Source: Lachnospiraceae bacterium (GTDB lineage: Bacteria > Bacillota > Clostridia > Lachnospirales > Lachnospiraceae). Taken from it: 64,000 nucleotides of DNA. The stretch lies in NCBI GenBank assembly GCA_017550535.1, contig JAFZOS010000039.1, positions 62,001-126,000 on the forward strand, read 5' to 3'. The first letter of the stretch is position 1, and every line of letters starts with the position of its first letter. The notes beneath the pieces were generated by a model. It saw only the letters and a program-made list of their open reading frames with translations. It ran no database searches and was not told the DNA's origin. Positions 31,142 through 64,000 of this stretch are shown piece by piece. A program made the position numbers and the translations under genes.

Positions 31142-32173
31142 TTATTCAATGACTTTTAAAGGTGTCTCTTTCCCTGATATATTACCTTCCGCATATCTGT
31201 TAAGGATCGTCTCGCAGGCAGTGCATGCTGCAAATCCCGGATCCCTTTTGCACCTTTCCTTAACCCTTTCGTACAGCAGGAATCCTCCGTTTTTCTTAAG
31301 ATTACCCGCCGTATTAAGACTGCTGATAAGCGGGAGGATATCAAGATCCATCCCGGCATAATCGATCGTTTCAGGGGTGTACTTAGCCTTATACATAATA
31401 TGCCATTTTACCGATTCCCTAAACGGTTCTATCGGCAGTGCGCCCAGATCATTTAATATCATTATGTTTGATACGATCTCTTTATAATCATCTTCCTTAT
31501 CCGGATCTTTACCCAGCAAAAGCACTTCTTCTTTTATACTGCCGTATAACTTCTCTTTTGATCCGTCAAGGATACCATACTTAATGCCGGTGATCATCTC
31601 ATCCACCGTCAGTTTTTCAATATTTAATTCATAATCGCTTTTTTGTGGGATACACACCCGATGTGTCATCATGTAAAGAAGATTTTTATCGCTTAAGCTT
31701 ATATCAGGATCGTTATAGTAGCCGGATAACAGCTTTGGACTGAAGGTAAACTTTTCGCGGTTCTGTATACATATACTGAGCATTGCCAGCAGCCTGCTTT
31801 TTATCAGCATCCTTATGATCTGCCCCTTGTCATAGTTCATGCCGTGCAATAGCAGGAACTCAAACAATTCCTTGTTAAACCCGCATGTTAAGTTTCCGTC
31901 TTTTATCTGCTGATATCCCCTTACCACAAACGCAATGTTGTTCAGTTCATCGATCATCTCATACTCGATCCTGCCTTTATCATCCGTTCGTTTGTAACAG
32001 TAGTGAACTGAATTTATGATATCCAGCATAATACTGTGTAAGGTATCGGGATCTGTCGGAAAATCACATATTCTTTTATGCCGGTAAAGATCCGTGAGGC
32101 TTCTTACTACCCGTTTTTCTCCGCCTGATTTGTACTTATATGTTCCGTGATATGTGCCCTTATTCTCATTCAT
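31142..32173 (-). CDS. Unidentified 343-residue protein
   Basis: I do not recognise a family. The protein is soluble, without signal peptide, mostly alpha-helical, and has scattered Cys, including a 'CTACETIL' near the C-terminus. The ATG at 32173 is preceded by GGAGGAGGGG; a longer frame adds 20 residues lacking a site. It stands alone between the exonuclease gene and the O-acylation locus, about 200 bases from the microprotein gene. No regulatory or enzymatic motif was noticed. Confidence 0.6.
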   Translation of the reverse strand: MNENKGTYHGTYKYKSGGEKRVVRSLTDLYRHKRICDFPTDPDTLHSIMLDIINSVHYCYKRTDDKGRIEYEMIDELNNIAFVVRGYQQIKDGNLTCGFNKELFEFLLLHGMNYDKGQIIRMLIKSRLLAMLSICIQNREKFTFSPKLLSGYYNDPDISLSDKNLLYMMTHRVCIPQKSDYELNIEKLTVDEMITGIKYGILDGSKEKLYGSIKEEVLLLGKDPDKEDDYKEIVSNIMILNDLGALPIEPFRESVKWHIMYKAKYTPETIDYAGMDLDILPLISSLNTAGNLKKNGGFLLYERVKERCKRDPGFAACTACETILNRYAEGNISGKETPLKVIE

Positions 32174-32372
32174 TTTCCCCTCCTCCGTGATCATAAAACA
32201 GATATGAAATGCGTAACGAGTACAAGGTAACATAACATTTTGCCTTTAGCAATACCTTTTTATAAACTTTCTTTGCGCTTTTGTTATTTTGTATACTTAA
32301 CCAAATTCACCTTACTGTTTTAAGTAACTTTTACCAAAAATCCGTCAATACAGCCCTCTTTTCACTGTTTAT

Positions 32373-32495
32373 TTAGAATCCCTGATACAGTATCGTCAGA
32401 TTTGATGCCTGAAAAACAGCATAGATCACAACCGCTGTCTTTAACCCCATCCATATGATCTTTAATACGTCTTTAAAACAAAACTTTTCATCCAT
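32373..32495 (-). CDS. DltX-like 40-residue membrane microprotein
   Basis: A 40-codon gene with GGAGG eight bases before its ATG, 38 bases downstream of the MBOAT stop on the same strand. The product has a short charged head (MDEKFCFKD), one hydrophobic helix (about residues 10-29) and ends '...TILYQGF'. Known DltX microproteins have the same plan: one helix and a C-terminal FIYNEF motif whose Tyr carries the acyl group between DltB and the acceptor. Here the last residues fit x-(I/L)-Tyr-x-x-Phe exactly (ILYQGF against FIYNEF). DltX normally lies before dltA; here it follows the MBOAT gene. Role in the locus is inferred from motif and position. Confidence 0.72.
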   Translation of the reverse strand: MDEKFCFKDVLKIIWMGLKTAVVIYAVFQASNLTILYQGF

Positions 32496-32533: not shown

Positions 32534-33748
32534 CTATCGGTTTATAAACAGAGACATCACCGGATATCCGGTAAAAGTAAACGTCAGGCAGATATATCCC
32601 CATGTTATGATGCGCGTAACTGTGATAACCGCCATATTGTTTTCATACTTTTTGTTCTTTTCCTTTCCAAGCCATTTTTTCCTTTTTGTTTTCCAAAGGG
32701 ATGCAACTACTATGCCAAGTCCCTGAAAAAAACCATACATTACATAATCGATAGTGGTCCCATGCCAGATCCCGGCAACCAGAAAAGTAACAAACAGTGC
32801 AACAGACTGCGATAAAATGATTTTTTTCTTAAAGGGTACTGAAAGGAGCCATTTGTAAAACGGCGTAAAGATATAATCCCTGATCCATTCGGATAATGTG
32901 ATATGGTGTCTGTTCCAAAACTCCACCACATTCCTTGAAAGATATGGCTTGTTAAAGTTTTCATGGATCTTCATACCGGAAAGACCCGCGGCGCCGATAA
33001 CAATATCGCAATAGCCTGAAAAGTTAAAATATATATACCAGCAATTCAGAAAAGCAAAAATGCAAAATGCAGCTGCCGCTTTTATAAAACCCGAATGATC
33101 CCTCAATCCGTCAAACCAGTATTTTGCCCATGAATCCAGGATAGCTGATATAACATAAACCTTAACATATCCGTTGATCACCCTGTTAATATGATCAAAC
33201 ATTTCCTTTTTTGTTATCGGTATATAACCCGCCTCATCCCCATATCTGTAAAAATCATCCACAAATTCCCTGTACCTTAATATGGGGCCGGCCATCAGGG
33301 TATAGAAATTCAATACATAATTAAGATAATCTGTCAGGTTCAGGGAATAGCCTTCTTCCTTAAGGCTTGAATACTGCATGATATAATCTATCTCTCTGAA
33401 CAGGAAATAGGACAATCCAAGGATCTTAAACAGAAATAACTCCGGAAGGTGCAGCAGGGAAAAGACAAAACCGTATTTGGCAAGATATATATAGACAATA
33501 ACCATGCCGGTTATCATAACCGGCTTCAGGTTTTCCCGATCGCCCAAAAAGTGCATCAGAACAAATGGCAGCACTACCCATAAAGCCGTAATGATCCATT
33601 GCAAAACCGAACGGGAAGCGACCGTAATGACCAGTATGTTCATAACAAGAAATACTTCCTGTCTTATTCGCGACCTATATCTTAAAAGAAACGGCGCCAT
33701 AATGATCATACAGGCAAAAAACAATGATTTAGTCGACAGTTCGATCAT
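32534..33748 (-). CDS. MBOAT O-acyltransferase (DltB-like)
   Basis: A 404-residue polytopic membrane protein with about eleven helices. The MBOAT marks are present: 'NRHHITLSEWIRDYIFTPFY' and the catalytic-His motif 'VAGIWHGTTIDYVMYGFFQGLG'. MBOAT proteins such as DltB move an acyl group from a carrier protein across the membrane to a cell-surface acceptor. It starts 1 base after the acyl carrier protein stop, with AAGGGAAA upstream. Neighbouring carrier, SGNH and microprotein genes suggest a Dlt-type D-alanylation or similar O-acylation unit. DltA-like activating enzyme is not in the locus but one starts at 62.6 kb. Confidence 0.88.
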   Translation of the reverse strand: MIELSTKSLFFACMIIMAPFLLRYRSRIRQEVFLVMNILVITVASRSVLQWIITALWVVLPFVLMHFLGDRENLKPVMITGMVIVYIYLAKYGFVFSLLHLPELFLFKILGLSYFLFREIDYIMQYSSLKEEGYSLNLTDYLNYVLNFYTLMAGPILRYREFVDDFYRYGDEAGYIPITKKEMFDHINRVINGYVKVYVISAILDSWAKYWFDGLRDHSGFIKAAAAFCIFAFLNCWYIYFNFSGYCDIVIGAAGLSGMKIHENFNKPYLSRNVVEFWNRHHITLSEWIRDYIFTPFYKWLLSVPFKKKIILSQSVALFVTFLVAGIWHGTTIDYVMYGFFQGLGIVVASLWKTKRKKWLGKEKNKKYENNMAVITVTRIITWGYICLTFTFTGYPVMSLFINR

Positions 33749-33749
33749 T

Positions 33750-33989
33750 TTATTTCCCTTCGATCTTATTATCTATAAGTTTTATAAAATCCCCAACATT
33801 TTTAAGGGCACTTGTTTCCACTATGGAAAACTTAATATCAAACTCATCCTGGACAGCCACAATAAGTGCCACATGAGACAAAGAATCCCAGCCTTCGATA
33901 TCGTCAGCCGTTGTTTCATTCCCTATGATTATCTCTTCATCATCAAACACATCTCTAAAAACTTCCTGTAATCTTTCCTGCGTACTCAT
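33750..33989 (-). CDS. Acyl carrier protein of the O-acylation locus
   Basis: A 79-residue acidic helical protein with the phosphopantetheine site 'GWDSLSHV' (Ser36). It resembles a general acyl or D-Ala carrier protein; the 'WDSLSH' context is closer to carrier proteins of MBOAT/SGNH clusters than to classical DltC. ATGGAGGATATAA precedes the ATG, and its first codons overlap the end of the SGNH gene by 35 bases, so the genes are coupled. It would present the thioester substrate to the MBOAT protein at the inner face of the membrane. Confidence 0.88.
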   Translation of the reverse strand: MSTQERLQEVFRDVFDDEEIIIGNETTADDIEGWDSLSHVALIVAVQDEFDIKFSIVETSALKNVGDFIKLIDNKIEGK

Positions 33990-35052
33990 TTATATCCTCC
34001 ATAATCCTGTTTGTGTATTCTATGCCCGCATCATATCCAAGGTGCACTCCGTCAGCATATTGATCCTGCTCAAAATCGTTCCTGTAATCCACATAACTTA
34101 TCCCGCTTTCATTCAGGAATGGGATAAGCCTGTTGTCCACATAATCCTTATATTCACATCCAAATTCAGTATTATCAAGGTTTGGCGGCATGGGCGACAA
34201 TTCAACGACAAGATGATAATTCTTGTTTATATCCTTTATAAGGTTTTCCATTATGCCTTTCATGTCTTCCGATATATTGAGCGACCCCTCAACAGCCTCC
34301 GGATTGTAATAGTTATTTCGAAAATTACCCGGAATGATAAGGCTGTCATACTTTCCATTCGCAGTGACCCCGAACTGTGCCGCCCTTTCTGTAAGACCGA
34401 TCCCATGACTCTTCCCCGGTACCTGATCTTTATAATCCATAAGAAGATCCCAGGCATTCTGGATCCTTATCAGATATGTATTAAATACATATAGAGGAGT
34501 CAGTATCCCGGACCCTTTTTCTATAATGATCCGTCCCTGTGAACCATTCTCATCTGCCACATGATATTTACCCCATTTATCAAGTATCGTTTCGGTGATA
34601 GTTACGGATGGATCGCGAAATGTGGAAAAGGATATCTCCAGTTTAATGATATCCGAATCCCCTATGAGGTTTTCCTCGGATAATAATTGATACAGTATCT
34701 GATCCGATCTGTAGCATCCGTTTCCGCATGTCATAAAACGATATGCATAAGAATCATCCTTCACTGCGACCTCATCATGGAACGGAACAACACATACCGA
34801 AGAACCTATGGATATCACACTTTTTTCATCCTCTTTTATCCGCGACATTTCCTTAATAAACCGGTTGTCAACAATATGATATCCCGTGTCATACCACGGT
34901 GAGGATACGCCTGTTGCATTTTCTTTGTAAAGATCAAGATAAACGGCGTTCAAATGATCTGTCAGATATATGGATAACTGTCCCGCCAGAATGATAAATA
35001 ATATCGCCAGGCCCAAAACAGCTAAAATAACCGCAAATACTTTTTTCATCAT
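33955..35052 (-). CDS. SGNH-type membrane protein (DltD-like)
   Basis: A 365-residue protein with an N-terminal membrane helix (VFAVILAVLGLAILFIILAG) and a large outer domain. The nucleophile block is 'VISIGSSVCVVPF' (GSS), and the C-terminal catalytic pair is in 'DQYADGVHLGYDAG' (Asp-x-x-His), so the SGNH triad appears intact. The pairing of a one-helix SGNH protein with an MBOAT partner is the same logic as DltD/DltB or AlgX-J type systems. It is the first gene of the locus. No good Shine-Dalgarno precedes the two adjacent ATGs. The terminator of tRNA-Arg lies just upstream. Confidence 0.8.
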   Translation of the reverse strand: MMKKVFAVILAVLGLAILFIILAGQLSIYLTDHLNAVYLDLYKENATGVSSPWYDTGYHIVDNRFIKEMSRIKEDEKSVISIGSSVCVVPFHDEVAVKDDSYAYRFMTCGNGCYRSDQILYQLLSEENLIGDSDIIKLEISFSTFRDPSVTITETILDKWGKYHVADENGSQGRIIIEKGSGILTPLYVFNTYLIRIQNAWDLLMDYKDQVPGKSHGIGLTERAAQFGVTANGKYDSLIIPGNFRNNYYNPEAVEGSLNISEDMKGIMENLIKDINKNYHLVVELSPMPPNLDNTEFGCEYKDYVDNRLIPFLNESGISYVDYRNDFEQDQYADGVHLGYDAGIEYTNRIMEDINEYAGKITGSF

Positions 35053-35112: not shown

Positions 35113-35127
35113 CTTCCTTATAATTCC

Positions 35128-35201
35128 CGTCCACGAGAGGATTCGAACCTCCGACCTTTCGCTTAGGAGGCGAACGCTCTATCCTGCTGAGCTACGTAGA
35201 C
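35128..35201 (-). tRNA. tRNA-Arg (anticodon CCT)
   Basis: A 74-base cloverleaf: acceptor GTCTACG pairing with CGTGGAC (one G-U), D arm GCTC...GAGC, anticodon loop CTCCTAA (anticodon CCT, reads AGG), T arm GGAGG-TTCGAAT-CCTCT and discriminator G. CCA is not encoded. AGG is used often for arginine in these genes. Confidence 0.95.
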
Positions 35202-35218
35202 GTACAAACACAAGAAAG

Positions 35219-62641: not shown

Positions 62642-64000
62642 ATGATAAACATACTAGATATGCTTGAAAAAGCAGCAGAAAAATACGGCGAGAAAACGGC
62701 ATATTCGGATCCGGATAATAAGATAAGCTTTAAGGATCTTGAAATTAAAGCAAAAAAAACAGCATCCCGATTGCTTGAAAATCCGGATATTAATGTTTTT
62801 GAACCCGAAAGCGCGGCAGTATTTTATATGGAAAAAAGCGTGGATGCGCTTACAGTAATGTTTGCCGCAATGTATCTTGGTTCATTTTACAGCTTTATTG
62901 ATATAAGACAGACAAAAAACAGGGCAGAAAGCATAATAAACGTGCTCGAACCGGCTTATATAATCACTGACGAAGCAAACAGGGATGCACTCTATACATT
63001 TGATATTGATAATAAGTTTAAGGAAAGGATCTTTGATATACATAAACTTCTCAGGGATGCAGAAAATGCGGTTATTAATGAAGATGCTCTGCTTAAGTTA
63101 AGGACCGGATTCTATGACAAAATGCCGCTGTATGTTAATTTTACCAGCGGAAGTACAGGAGTTCCCAAGGGCGTTGCGGTAGGGCACGCTTCTGTTATTG
63201 AGTTTATACGTGAATTTACCGGGGTTTTTGACATTACATCGGATGATGTGATCGCAAACCAGGCACCGTTTGATTTTGACGTATCAGTCAAGGATATCTA
63301 CAGCGGACTTTATACCGGAGCAGGGACAGTCCTTATACCGAGGGAGTATTTTTCGAATCCGTCGGTATTAATGGGCTATCTTACGGATAACAAGGTAACC
63401 ACGCTTATCTGGGCAGTGTCGGCTATGTGTTTTGTCTCTATCATGAACGGACTTGAGTATAAAACACCGAAAACCATAAGAAAAGTAATGTTTTCGGGAG
63501 AATTGATGCCGGTAAAACAGCTTAATAAGTGGAAAAAGTTCCTTCCCGATGCAATGTATGTAAATCTTTACGGACCTACCGAGATAACCTGTAACTGTAC
63601 TTATCATATACTTGACCGGGAATATGAAAAGGACGAAGTCATCCCTATAGGAATTCCGTTCAGAAACGAGAAAGTCTTTCTTCTTGATGAGAACGACAGG
63701 GAAATAAAGAAAGCCGGGATCGAGGGAGAGATCTGTGTTTCGGGTTCCTGCCTGGCCCTCGGATATTATAGGGAGCCTGACAAGACAGCTGAGGTTTTTG
63801 TGCAGAATCCACTCAATTCAAGGTTTTCAGAACAGATATACAGGACAGGAGATCTTGGAAAATATGATGAGAGCGGTCTTTTGTATTATACTTCACGCAA
63901 AGATTTCCAGATAAAGCACATGGGACAAAGGATTGAGTTATCGGATATAGATGTTTCCGCAATGTCTATTGACGGAGTATCACGTGCACTCAGCATTTAT
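62642..64000 (+). CDS. dltA: DltA-like amino-acid adenylation enzyme, truncated by window end
   Basis: 453 codons run to the right edge without a stop. Motifs: 'FTSGSTGVPKGVAVGH' (P-loop-like A3), 'GPTEITCNCTYH' (A5), 'YRTGDLGKYDESG' (A7) and 'RKDFQIKHMGQRIEL' (A8). These are the core motifs of AMP-forming adenylation domains, with the DltA-type 'DFQIK.xG.RiEL' end. DltA activates D-Ala and loads it on the carrier DltC. Two Cys in 'TCNC' near the substrate pocket are unusual. GGAG lies 6 bases before the ATG. It could head a second dlt operon to the right or serve the locus at 32-35 kb. Confidence 0.75.
   Translation, partial: MINILDMLEKAAEKYGEKTAYSDPDNKISFKDLEIKAKKTASRLLENPDINVFEPESAAVFYMEKSVDALTVMFAAMYLGSFYSFIDIRQTKNRAESIINVLEPAYIITDEANRDALYTFDIDNKFKERIFDIHKLLRDAENAVINEDALLKLRTGFYDKMPLYVNFTSGSTGVPKGVAVGHASVIEFIREFTGVFDITSDDVIANQAPFDFDVSVKDIYSGLYTGAGTVLIPREYFSNPSVLMGYLTDNKVTTLIWAVSAMCFVSIMNGLEYKTPKTIRKVMFSGELMPVKQLNKWKKFLPDAMYVNLYGPTEITCNCTYHILDREYEKDEVIPIGIPFRNEKVFLLDENDREIKKAGIEGEICVSGSCLALGYYREPDKTAEVFVQNPLNSRFSEQIYRTGDLGKYDESGLLYYTSRKDFQIKHMGQRIELSDIDVSAMSIDGVSRALSIY

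Follow-up and report, generated by a model that had tools for sequence, protein, structure and literature searches.

A conserved one-helix microprotein behind an MBOAT gene of Lachnospiraceae is the candidate acyl shuttle of a Dlt-like relay that probably differs from Dlt in its cargo

The window, i.e., the whole analysed stretch of 64,000 nucleotides from a Lachnospiraceae contig, carries on its reverse strand four neighbouring genes encoding an SGNH/DltD-like extracytoplasmic transferase with an N-terminal membrane helix (33955..35052, 365 aa), a stand-alone acyl carrier protein (33750..33989, 79 aa), an MBOAT acyltransferase (32534..33748, 404 aa) and a microprotein (32373..32495, 40 aa). 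The microprotein, MDEKFCFKDVLKIIWMGLKTAVVIYAVFQASNLTILYQGF, has one transmembrane helix and the C-terminal end TILYQGF, and is proposed here to act as an acyl shuttle via Tyr37. Its ORF starts 38 nt past the MBOAT stop, and GGAGG precedes the ATG, as expected from the good ribosome site noted in the preliminary description of the locus. The hydrophobic stretch is single, with no Lys or Arg beyond it; the stretch is also single in all eight microproteins of the family described below, seven of which lack Lys/Arg C-terminal to it. The window contains 533 ORFs with a length of 25-80 codons; three of these end in Y-x-x-F, and only the microprotein ends in [FILV][ILVMFA]Y-x-x-F. A large ORF without a Pfam match (31142-32179) lies between the microprotein and an RNase_T gene, and by eye its place is taken by a lipoprotein-like ORF in one related locus, L051. 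At the other end of the group, a tRNA-Arg (CCT) gene (35127-35202) in the same orientation shortly precedes the SGNH gene, and a promoter-like site before the tRNA gene matches 11/12; promoter-like sites in this region are no more frequent than in shuffles.

GTDB species genomes were scanned with a two-sequence MBOAT alignment and two short peptide patterns, a scan that missed two relatives found later. It returned five related loci, all from Lachnospiraceae MAGs and all with the microprotein directly behind the MBOAT gene; one of them, L052, is the same contig as L018/G052. A profile of six microproteins gave five strong matches in 397 Lachnospiraceae genomes, three already in the profile and two new (G273, E 7.5e-20; G380, E 1.1e-10), both behind an orthologous MBOAT, and among 391 genomes of the class it matched strongly only in the window's own genome. 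The resulting set comprises eight genomes, with the microprotein behind the MBOAT gene in 8/8 orthologous Lachnospiraceae loci and the gene order SGNH-(FkbH)-carrier-MBOAT-microprotein. Weak profile matches (E 0.002-0.009; 5+3) were set aside, as two of their loci (L071, L074) showed no MBOAT by eye and the remaining six were taken as chance on score alone.

Compared with the microprotein of L051, whose MBOAT is 84% identical, 19.0 of 24.2 synonymous and 8.0 of 95.8 nonsynonymous sites differ, and the flanks are unconserved (16/38 and 5/40 identical bases). By this comparison, the microprotein is under strong purifying selection. A spurious ORF, which its mere 40 codons and the lack of any Pfam or NCBIfam match at E up to 1 might suggest, is virtually excluded and can be regarded as refuted by the conservation in all eight loci together with the synonymous/nonsynonymous contrast. 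The sequences thus mark the 40-codon ORF as a real, selected gene, and the description of a genuine single-helix microprotein beside the MBOAT gene is borne out: neither the ORF nor its terminal Tyr is missing from any of the homologous loci. Its profile found nothing useful among solved structures.

All eight microproteins end in T-(I/V)-L-Y-Q-(G/S)-F, and W15, A26, F28, T34, L36, Y37, Q38 and F40 are invariant. A charged residue within the helix is also conserved, as Lys in seven and Glu in one. The published shuttle motif is FxYxxF, and the shuttle was reportedly defined by a 2023 paper. Here, (I/V)LYQ(G/S)F is found in 8/8, i.e., the Tyr and the last Phe are kept and the first Phe is replaced by I/V. 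The earlier proposal to align the last residues of small ORFs behind homologous MBOAT genes hence gave an invariant L-Y-Q-x-F, and the claim that the tail fits the acyl-shuttle pattern holds for xxYxxF but not for FxYxxF. The DltX family PF12459 matched neither the window microprotein (E up to 1) nor four relatives (E up to 10), yet it is insensitive here, matching only one of four scanned Lachnospiraceae DltX, and that one below the cut-off. Aligning the microprotein profile with six Lachnospiraceae DltX by hhalign gave a probability of 0.2% over 7 columns, a comparison of low power given such short profiles. By sequence, the microprotein therefore has no detectable membership of DltX, although by analogy it very probably works like DltX. 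Its place behind the MBOAT gene rather than before dltA had been called unusual, which does not hold for this family: in nine of nine Lachnospiraceae dlt loci (L075-L083), a Y-x-x-F microprotein is the last gene, after dltD. Six of these loci were taken from listed genes and three from reading frames, with dltA and dltD named by eye and dltC listed in six.

The MBOAT is of about DltB length and belongs to PF03062 (1.7e-19; 70.7 bits, cut-off 27), with His281, His282 and His329, the last within WHG, invariant in six aligned sequences. Its best solved relative is DltB (6bug, 3.5e-28), yet it reaches only 187 bits against the DltB equivalog TIGR04091, for which the cut-off is 375, and falls outside DltB by that measure. 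Microprotein-linked MBOATs score 161-192 bits against this model and three DltBs of the family 421-494; as three fused-tail MBOATs score 133-178, the score fails to separate the microprotein-linked group from them. The window MBOAT has no Y-x-x-F tail at its C-terminus. The window genome encodes ten MBOATs, and the other nine all end in Y-x-x-F (the tenth in FIYGRF). In a census of 38 loci (L001-L008 and L017-L046, the window counted twice), 27 hold an MBOAT ending in Y-x-x-F, 26 of them measuring 422-574 aa and the remaining one, close to the end of a contig, 325 aa. The tail is absent from seven DltB-length ORFs and three microprotein-linked MBOATs (the window twice, L018), and one locus is without a complete ORF. 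The microprotein aligns with the final helix and the tail of the long MBOATs in a 42-row alignment, a placement that depends on two rows whose in-frame stops were read through. In a tree built from 45 MBOATs, three groups each occupy one branch, namely the microprotein-linked (8 rows, 100/100), DltB (9 rows, 100/99) and long MBOATs (28 rows, 99/99). The microprotein-linked proteins accordingly form their own clade beside DltB, and with the microproteins set apart from DltX, the preliminary suggestion of a separate branch of MBOAT-partner microproteins is upheld. Identity with canonical DltX/DltB was ruled out on the TIGR04091 score below cut-off, the lack of a DltX profile alignment and the separate MBOAT clade.

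The 365-aa protein at the head of the group has no Pfam or NCBIfam match at E up to 1, and its profile found nothing useful among solved structures. Nevertheless, the GxS and DxxH motifs of SGNH proteins are present as GSS and DGxH, both invariant in 8/8. The only three matches of its predicted model (mean pLDDT 76.9) at E <= 0.001 are DltD crystal structures (TM 0.41-0.42, rmsd 12-13 A), led by 6pfx (E 1.9e-4, TM 0.42, rmsd 13). The model thus points, through a modest match, to a link in fold with DltD and not to orthology.

The carrier protein (PF00550, 1.4e-5) has its Ser in DSL and shares 58-69% identity with the carriers from six FkbH operons, compared to 13-22% with six DltC. An FkbH gene lies between the SGNH and carrier genes in six of the eight loci (L052, L053, L054, L055, L069, L070); in L055, FkbH and carrier form one 720-aa ORF, and L053 has two additional ORFs in between. 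All six operon FkbH proteins exceed the TIGR01686 cut-off (146.65 bits), and the HAD motif DLDNT and the Cys of MSCRVLKR are kept in 7/7 aligned FkbH, four of them from microprotein operons. This Cys is presumably the residue carrying the glyceryl group. No FkbH lies beside the operon in the window or in L051. The window genome (G000) has two FkbH over the cut-off, one beside its own carrier gene on contig C102 and one on C64, where a frame of 1291 aa contains a domain scoring 157 bits, and the genome of L051 (G776) has one, beside a carrier gene. The window carrier is 50% identical to the C102 carrier and 46% to that of G776, and carrier loading in trans is plausible in the window's genome. 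The C102-type FkbH-carrier pair is also present in the same-genus genome G193, where the microprotein profile finds nothing. In three genomes, the window's included, an FkbH-carrier pair lies beside a gene that by eye resembles 6-phosphofructokinase (L073 9167-11259, L092, L093).

While the components recall Dlt, the gene content does not. No DltA exceeds the cut-off (TIGR01734, 560 bits) in the window genome, which encodes several DltA-like adenylation domains (best 290 bits), or in the seven other genomes with the system (258-305 bits for the best domain of each); two control genomes that carry dlt reach 577 and 567 bits. DltB over the cut-off is likewise absent from all eight system genomes and from G193, which says little, since only 6/150 Lachnospiraceae genomes have one. 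For that reason, the idea that the system replaced Dlt, drawn from the absence of DltB in 8/8 genomes, was rejected. With DltA and DltB both below cut-off in all eight genomes, the microprotein is nowhere encoded with dltA, dltB, dltC and dltD. Judged by these profile scores, the operon system is not Dlt, and D-alanine is an unlikely cargo, because dltA is absent and FkbH stands in its place in six of eight relatives. The preliminary description was therefore right about a shuttle-like microprotein but overlooked the absence of dltA and the FkbH genes of the relatives, which are the more novel part of the finding.

In Dlt, DltB moves D-alanine from the carrier to the C-terminal Tyr of DltX, from where it passes to the Ser of DltD, and acyl-Tyr has been shown for PatA and reported for DltX (PMC12148441). 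In analogy, the four genes likely encode a Dlt-like transmembrane acyl relay, probably placing glycerate esters onto a surface polymer; we put the probability of this reading at roughly 0.6, a figure that allows for partial correctness. FkbH would load the carrier with a glyceryl group from 1,3-bisphosphoglycerate, and on the cytoplasmic side the MBOAT would receive the thioester-bound group from the loaded carrier. Assuming acyl-Tyr chemistry, the MBOAT would then transfer this acyl group to Tyr37 on the putatively extracytoplasmic tail of the microprotein. From the tail, the SGNH protein may accept the group on its catalytic Ser and would use it to esterify a surface polymer or glycolipid. 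On these shared roles, each of the four proteins has its counterpart in Dlt: the carrier that of DltC, the MBOAT that of DltB, the microprotein that of DltX and the SGNH protein that of DltD. It is highly likely that the microprotein supplies the tail missing from its MBOAT and serves as the shuttle; that the cargo is glyceryl is somewhat favoured. In a tetronate pathway, the formation of glyceryl-ACP is attributed to FkbH-like enzymes as their likely function, and FkbH products in other pathways can undergo further oxidation (PMC7489565). Glycerate is a known acyl group on gellan gum, going by a 1986 title cited in PMC4432689. In six loci, the next downstream gene is, by eye, sugar nucleotidyltransferase-like, which hints at a glycan or glycolipid acceptor; this is not so in the window or in L051.

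The same relay could instead carry an amino acid or other acid, loaded in the manner of DltA and D-alanine by an adenylating enzyme whose gene lies elsewhere. The DltA-like domains of the window genome (the best at 290 bits, and one only 30 kb away on the same contig) would fit such a source, as would the window operon being without an adjoining FkbH. Yet neither this genome nor the seven others reach the DltA cut-off of 560 bits, the domain 30 kb away has a different carrier gene and a fused-tail MBOAT in its vicinity, and the window carrier is of the type found in FkbH operons, leaving another cargo rather unlikely. A diverged true Dlt system, in which D-alanylating DltX, DltB, DltC and DltD were retained and dltA had moved, would account for the component-by-component correspondence and for DltB being the nearest solved relative of the MBOAT. 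It is nonetheless highly improbable, as DltA exceeds the cut-off in 0/8 genomes against 577 and 567 bits in the controls, the MBOATs score 161-192 bits against 421-494 for DltBs of the family, and the carrier is only 13-22% identical to DltC; DltB over cut-off in 0/8 genomes weighs little here, given its presence in 6/150 Lachnospiraceae.

Apart from the cargo, the microprotein might be an accessory membrane subunit whose task is to stabilise the MBOAT or bring in the SGNH protein, and its Tyr would then not be an acyl intermediate. The conserved charge within the helix (Lys 7/8, Glu 1) would suit such a packing role, but the tail belongs to the best-conserved parts of the microprotein, makes up for the one that the MBOAT lacks and ends in Y-x-x-F, the motif in which PatA is acylated on Tyr, so that this role too appears improbable.

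Returning to the proposed glycerate relay, it resembles the Dlt pathway in having a carrier donor, a tail-less MBOAT, a separate one-helix microprotein with a C-terminal Tyr and an SGNH partner of DltD fold. It differs in that no DltA exceeds the cut-off, FkbH is present in 6/8 loci, the carrier is distant from DltC, the MBOAT falls short of the DltB cut-off and does not join the DltB clade, the motif starts with I/V and not F, and the gene order is that given above. The PatA/PatB and AlgI/AlgX pairs likewise combine an MBOAT with an SGNH protein and have a Tyr shuttle at a C-terminal Y-x-x-F, but they use acyl-CoA as donor and have the tail fused to the MBOAT, as has been demonstrated for PatA (PMC12148441). 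The glyceryl modules formed by FkbH and ACP in tetronate and methoxymalonyl pathways also consist of FkbH and a stand-alone carrier, and the FkbH proteins here, sharing the HAD motif and the invariant Cys, can be likened to them, yet those modules feed polyketide synthesis (PMC7489565). Closest in the predicted donor module are loci in which FkbH, ACP, a fused-tail MBOAT and AlgX lie together (L102, L131, L133); they differ in the fused tail and the AlgX-type SGNH protein, and no such locus appeared among the open-access literature matches listed. Likewise, the open-access matches listed contained neither a non-Dlt MBOAT microprotein nor FkbH with an MBOAT in envelope acylation; an earlier mention in the 2023 paper that defined the shuttle is possible. 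According to a 2025 MBOAT-SGNH paper (PMC12148441), non-Dlt pathways have neither a carrier protein nor a microprotein like DltX, and the operon family, having both without apparently being Dlt, is contrary to that statement.

FkbH over the cut-off is found in 29/150 Lachnospiraceae genomes. Stretches reaching about 7 kb to each side, shorter at contig ends, were inspected at 28 of 31 places; G052 and two places in G000 were left out, and a split match in G107 was counted as one. An MBOAT is present in 15 of the 28 stretches (L131, L133, L136, L138, L140, L142-L144, L146, L148, L151-L153, L155, L156), each also with a carrier-like ORF, and is lacking in 13, some of them short. For a rough comparison, a genome of 2.74 Mb with ten MBOATs would have about 6% of random positions within 7 kb of one, and the clustering of polysaccharide genes raises the true expectation. 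Four FkbH-linked neighbours were tested for the SGNH partner, giving an AlgX-type protein in L102, L131 and L133 and no match in L143. On a quickly built tree of 59 rows, six changes are required to account for the 16 long MBOATs linked to FkbH, indicating that the FkbH-MBOAT pairing was repeatedly gained or lost, and the 15 stretches are possibly an undescribed class of carrier-fed MBOAT systems. A Y-Q tail occurs in 7/16 FkbH-linked fused MBOATs and 2/26 others, only part of the latter having been checked for a nearby FkbH. All seven (L140, L142, L143, L144, L151, L152, L156) belong to one clade ending in FIYQ(G/R/Q)F, near the (I/V)LYQ(G/S)F of the microprotein; as this is one event, the Y-Q tail was rejected as a signature of FkbH linkage and kept only as a lead.

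With roughly even chances, glyceroylation could be a distinct envelope modification, in which FkbH makes glyceryl-S-ACP from a glycolytic intermediate, the MBOAT/microprotein/SGNH relay esterifies a surface polymer, and FkbH-carrier modules have joined MBOAT systems several times, with the shuttle tail fused or, in this clade, separate. If so, one donor module could be exchanged for another, and Dlt would not be the only pathway built around a separate microprotein. From the linkage with FkbH follows a specific, testable prediction of the cargo; if true, an envelope modification would be tied directly to a glycolytic intermediate, and a new natural case of MBOAT acyl hand-over across membranes would be added.

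A second carrier-type gene group is found in the same genome, at window 62648-64000 and continuing in L048 4642-12783 (G000:C57:120001-137098). It comprises an AMP-binding enzyme (PF00501), a carrier protein, a 334-aa protein and a fused-tail MBOAT ending in SFMYQAF, which suggests carrier-fed fused-tail MBOATs driven by adenylation.
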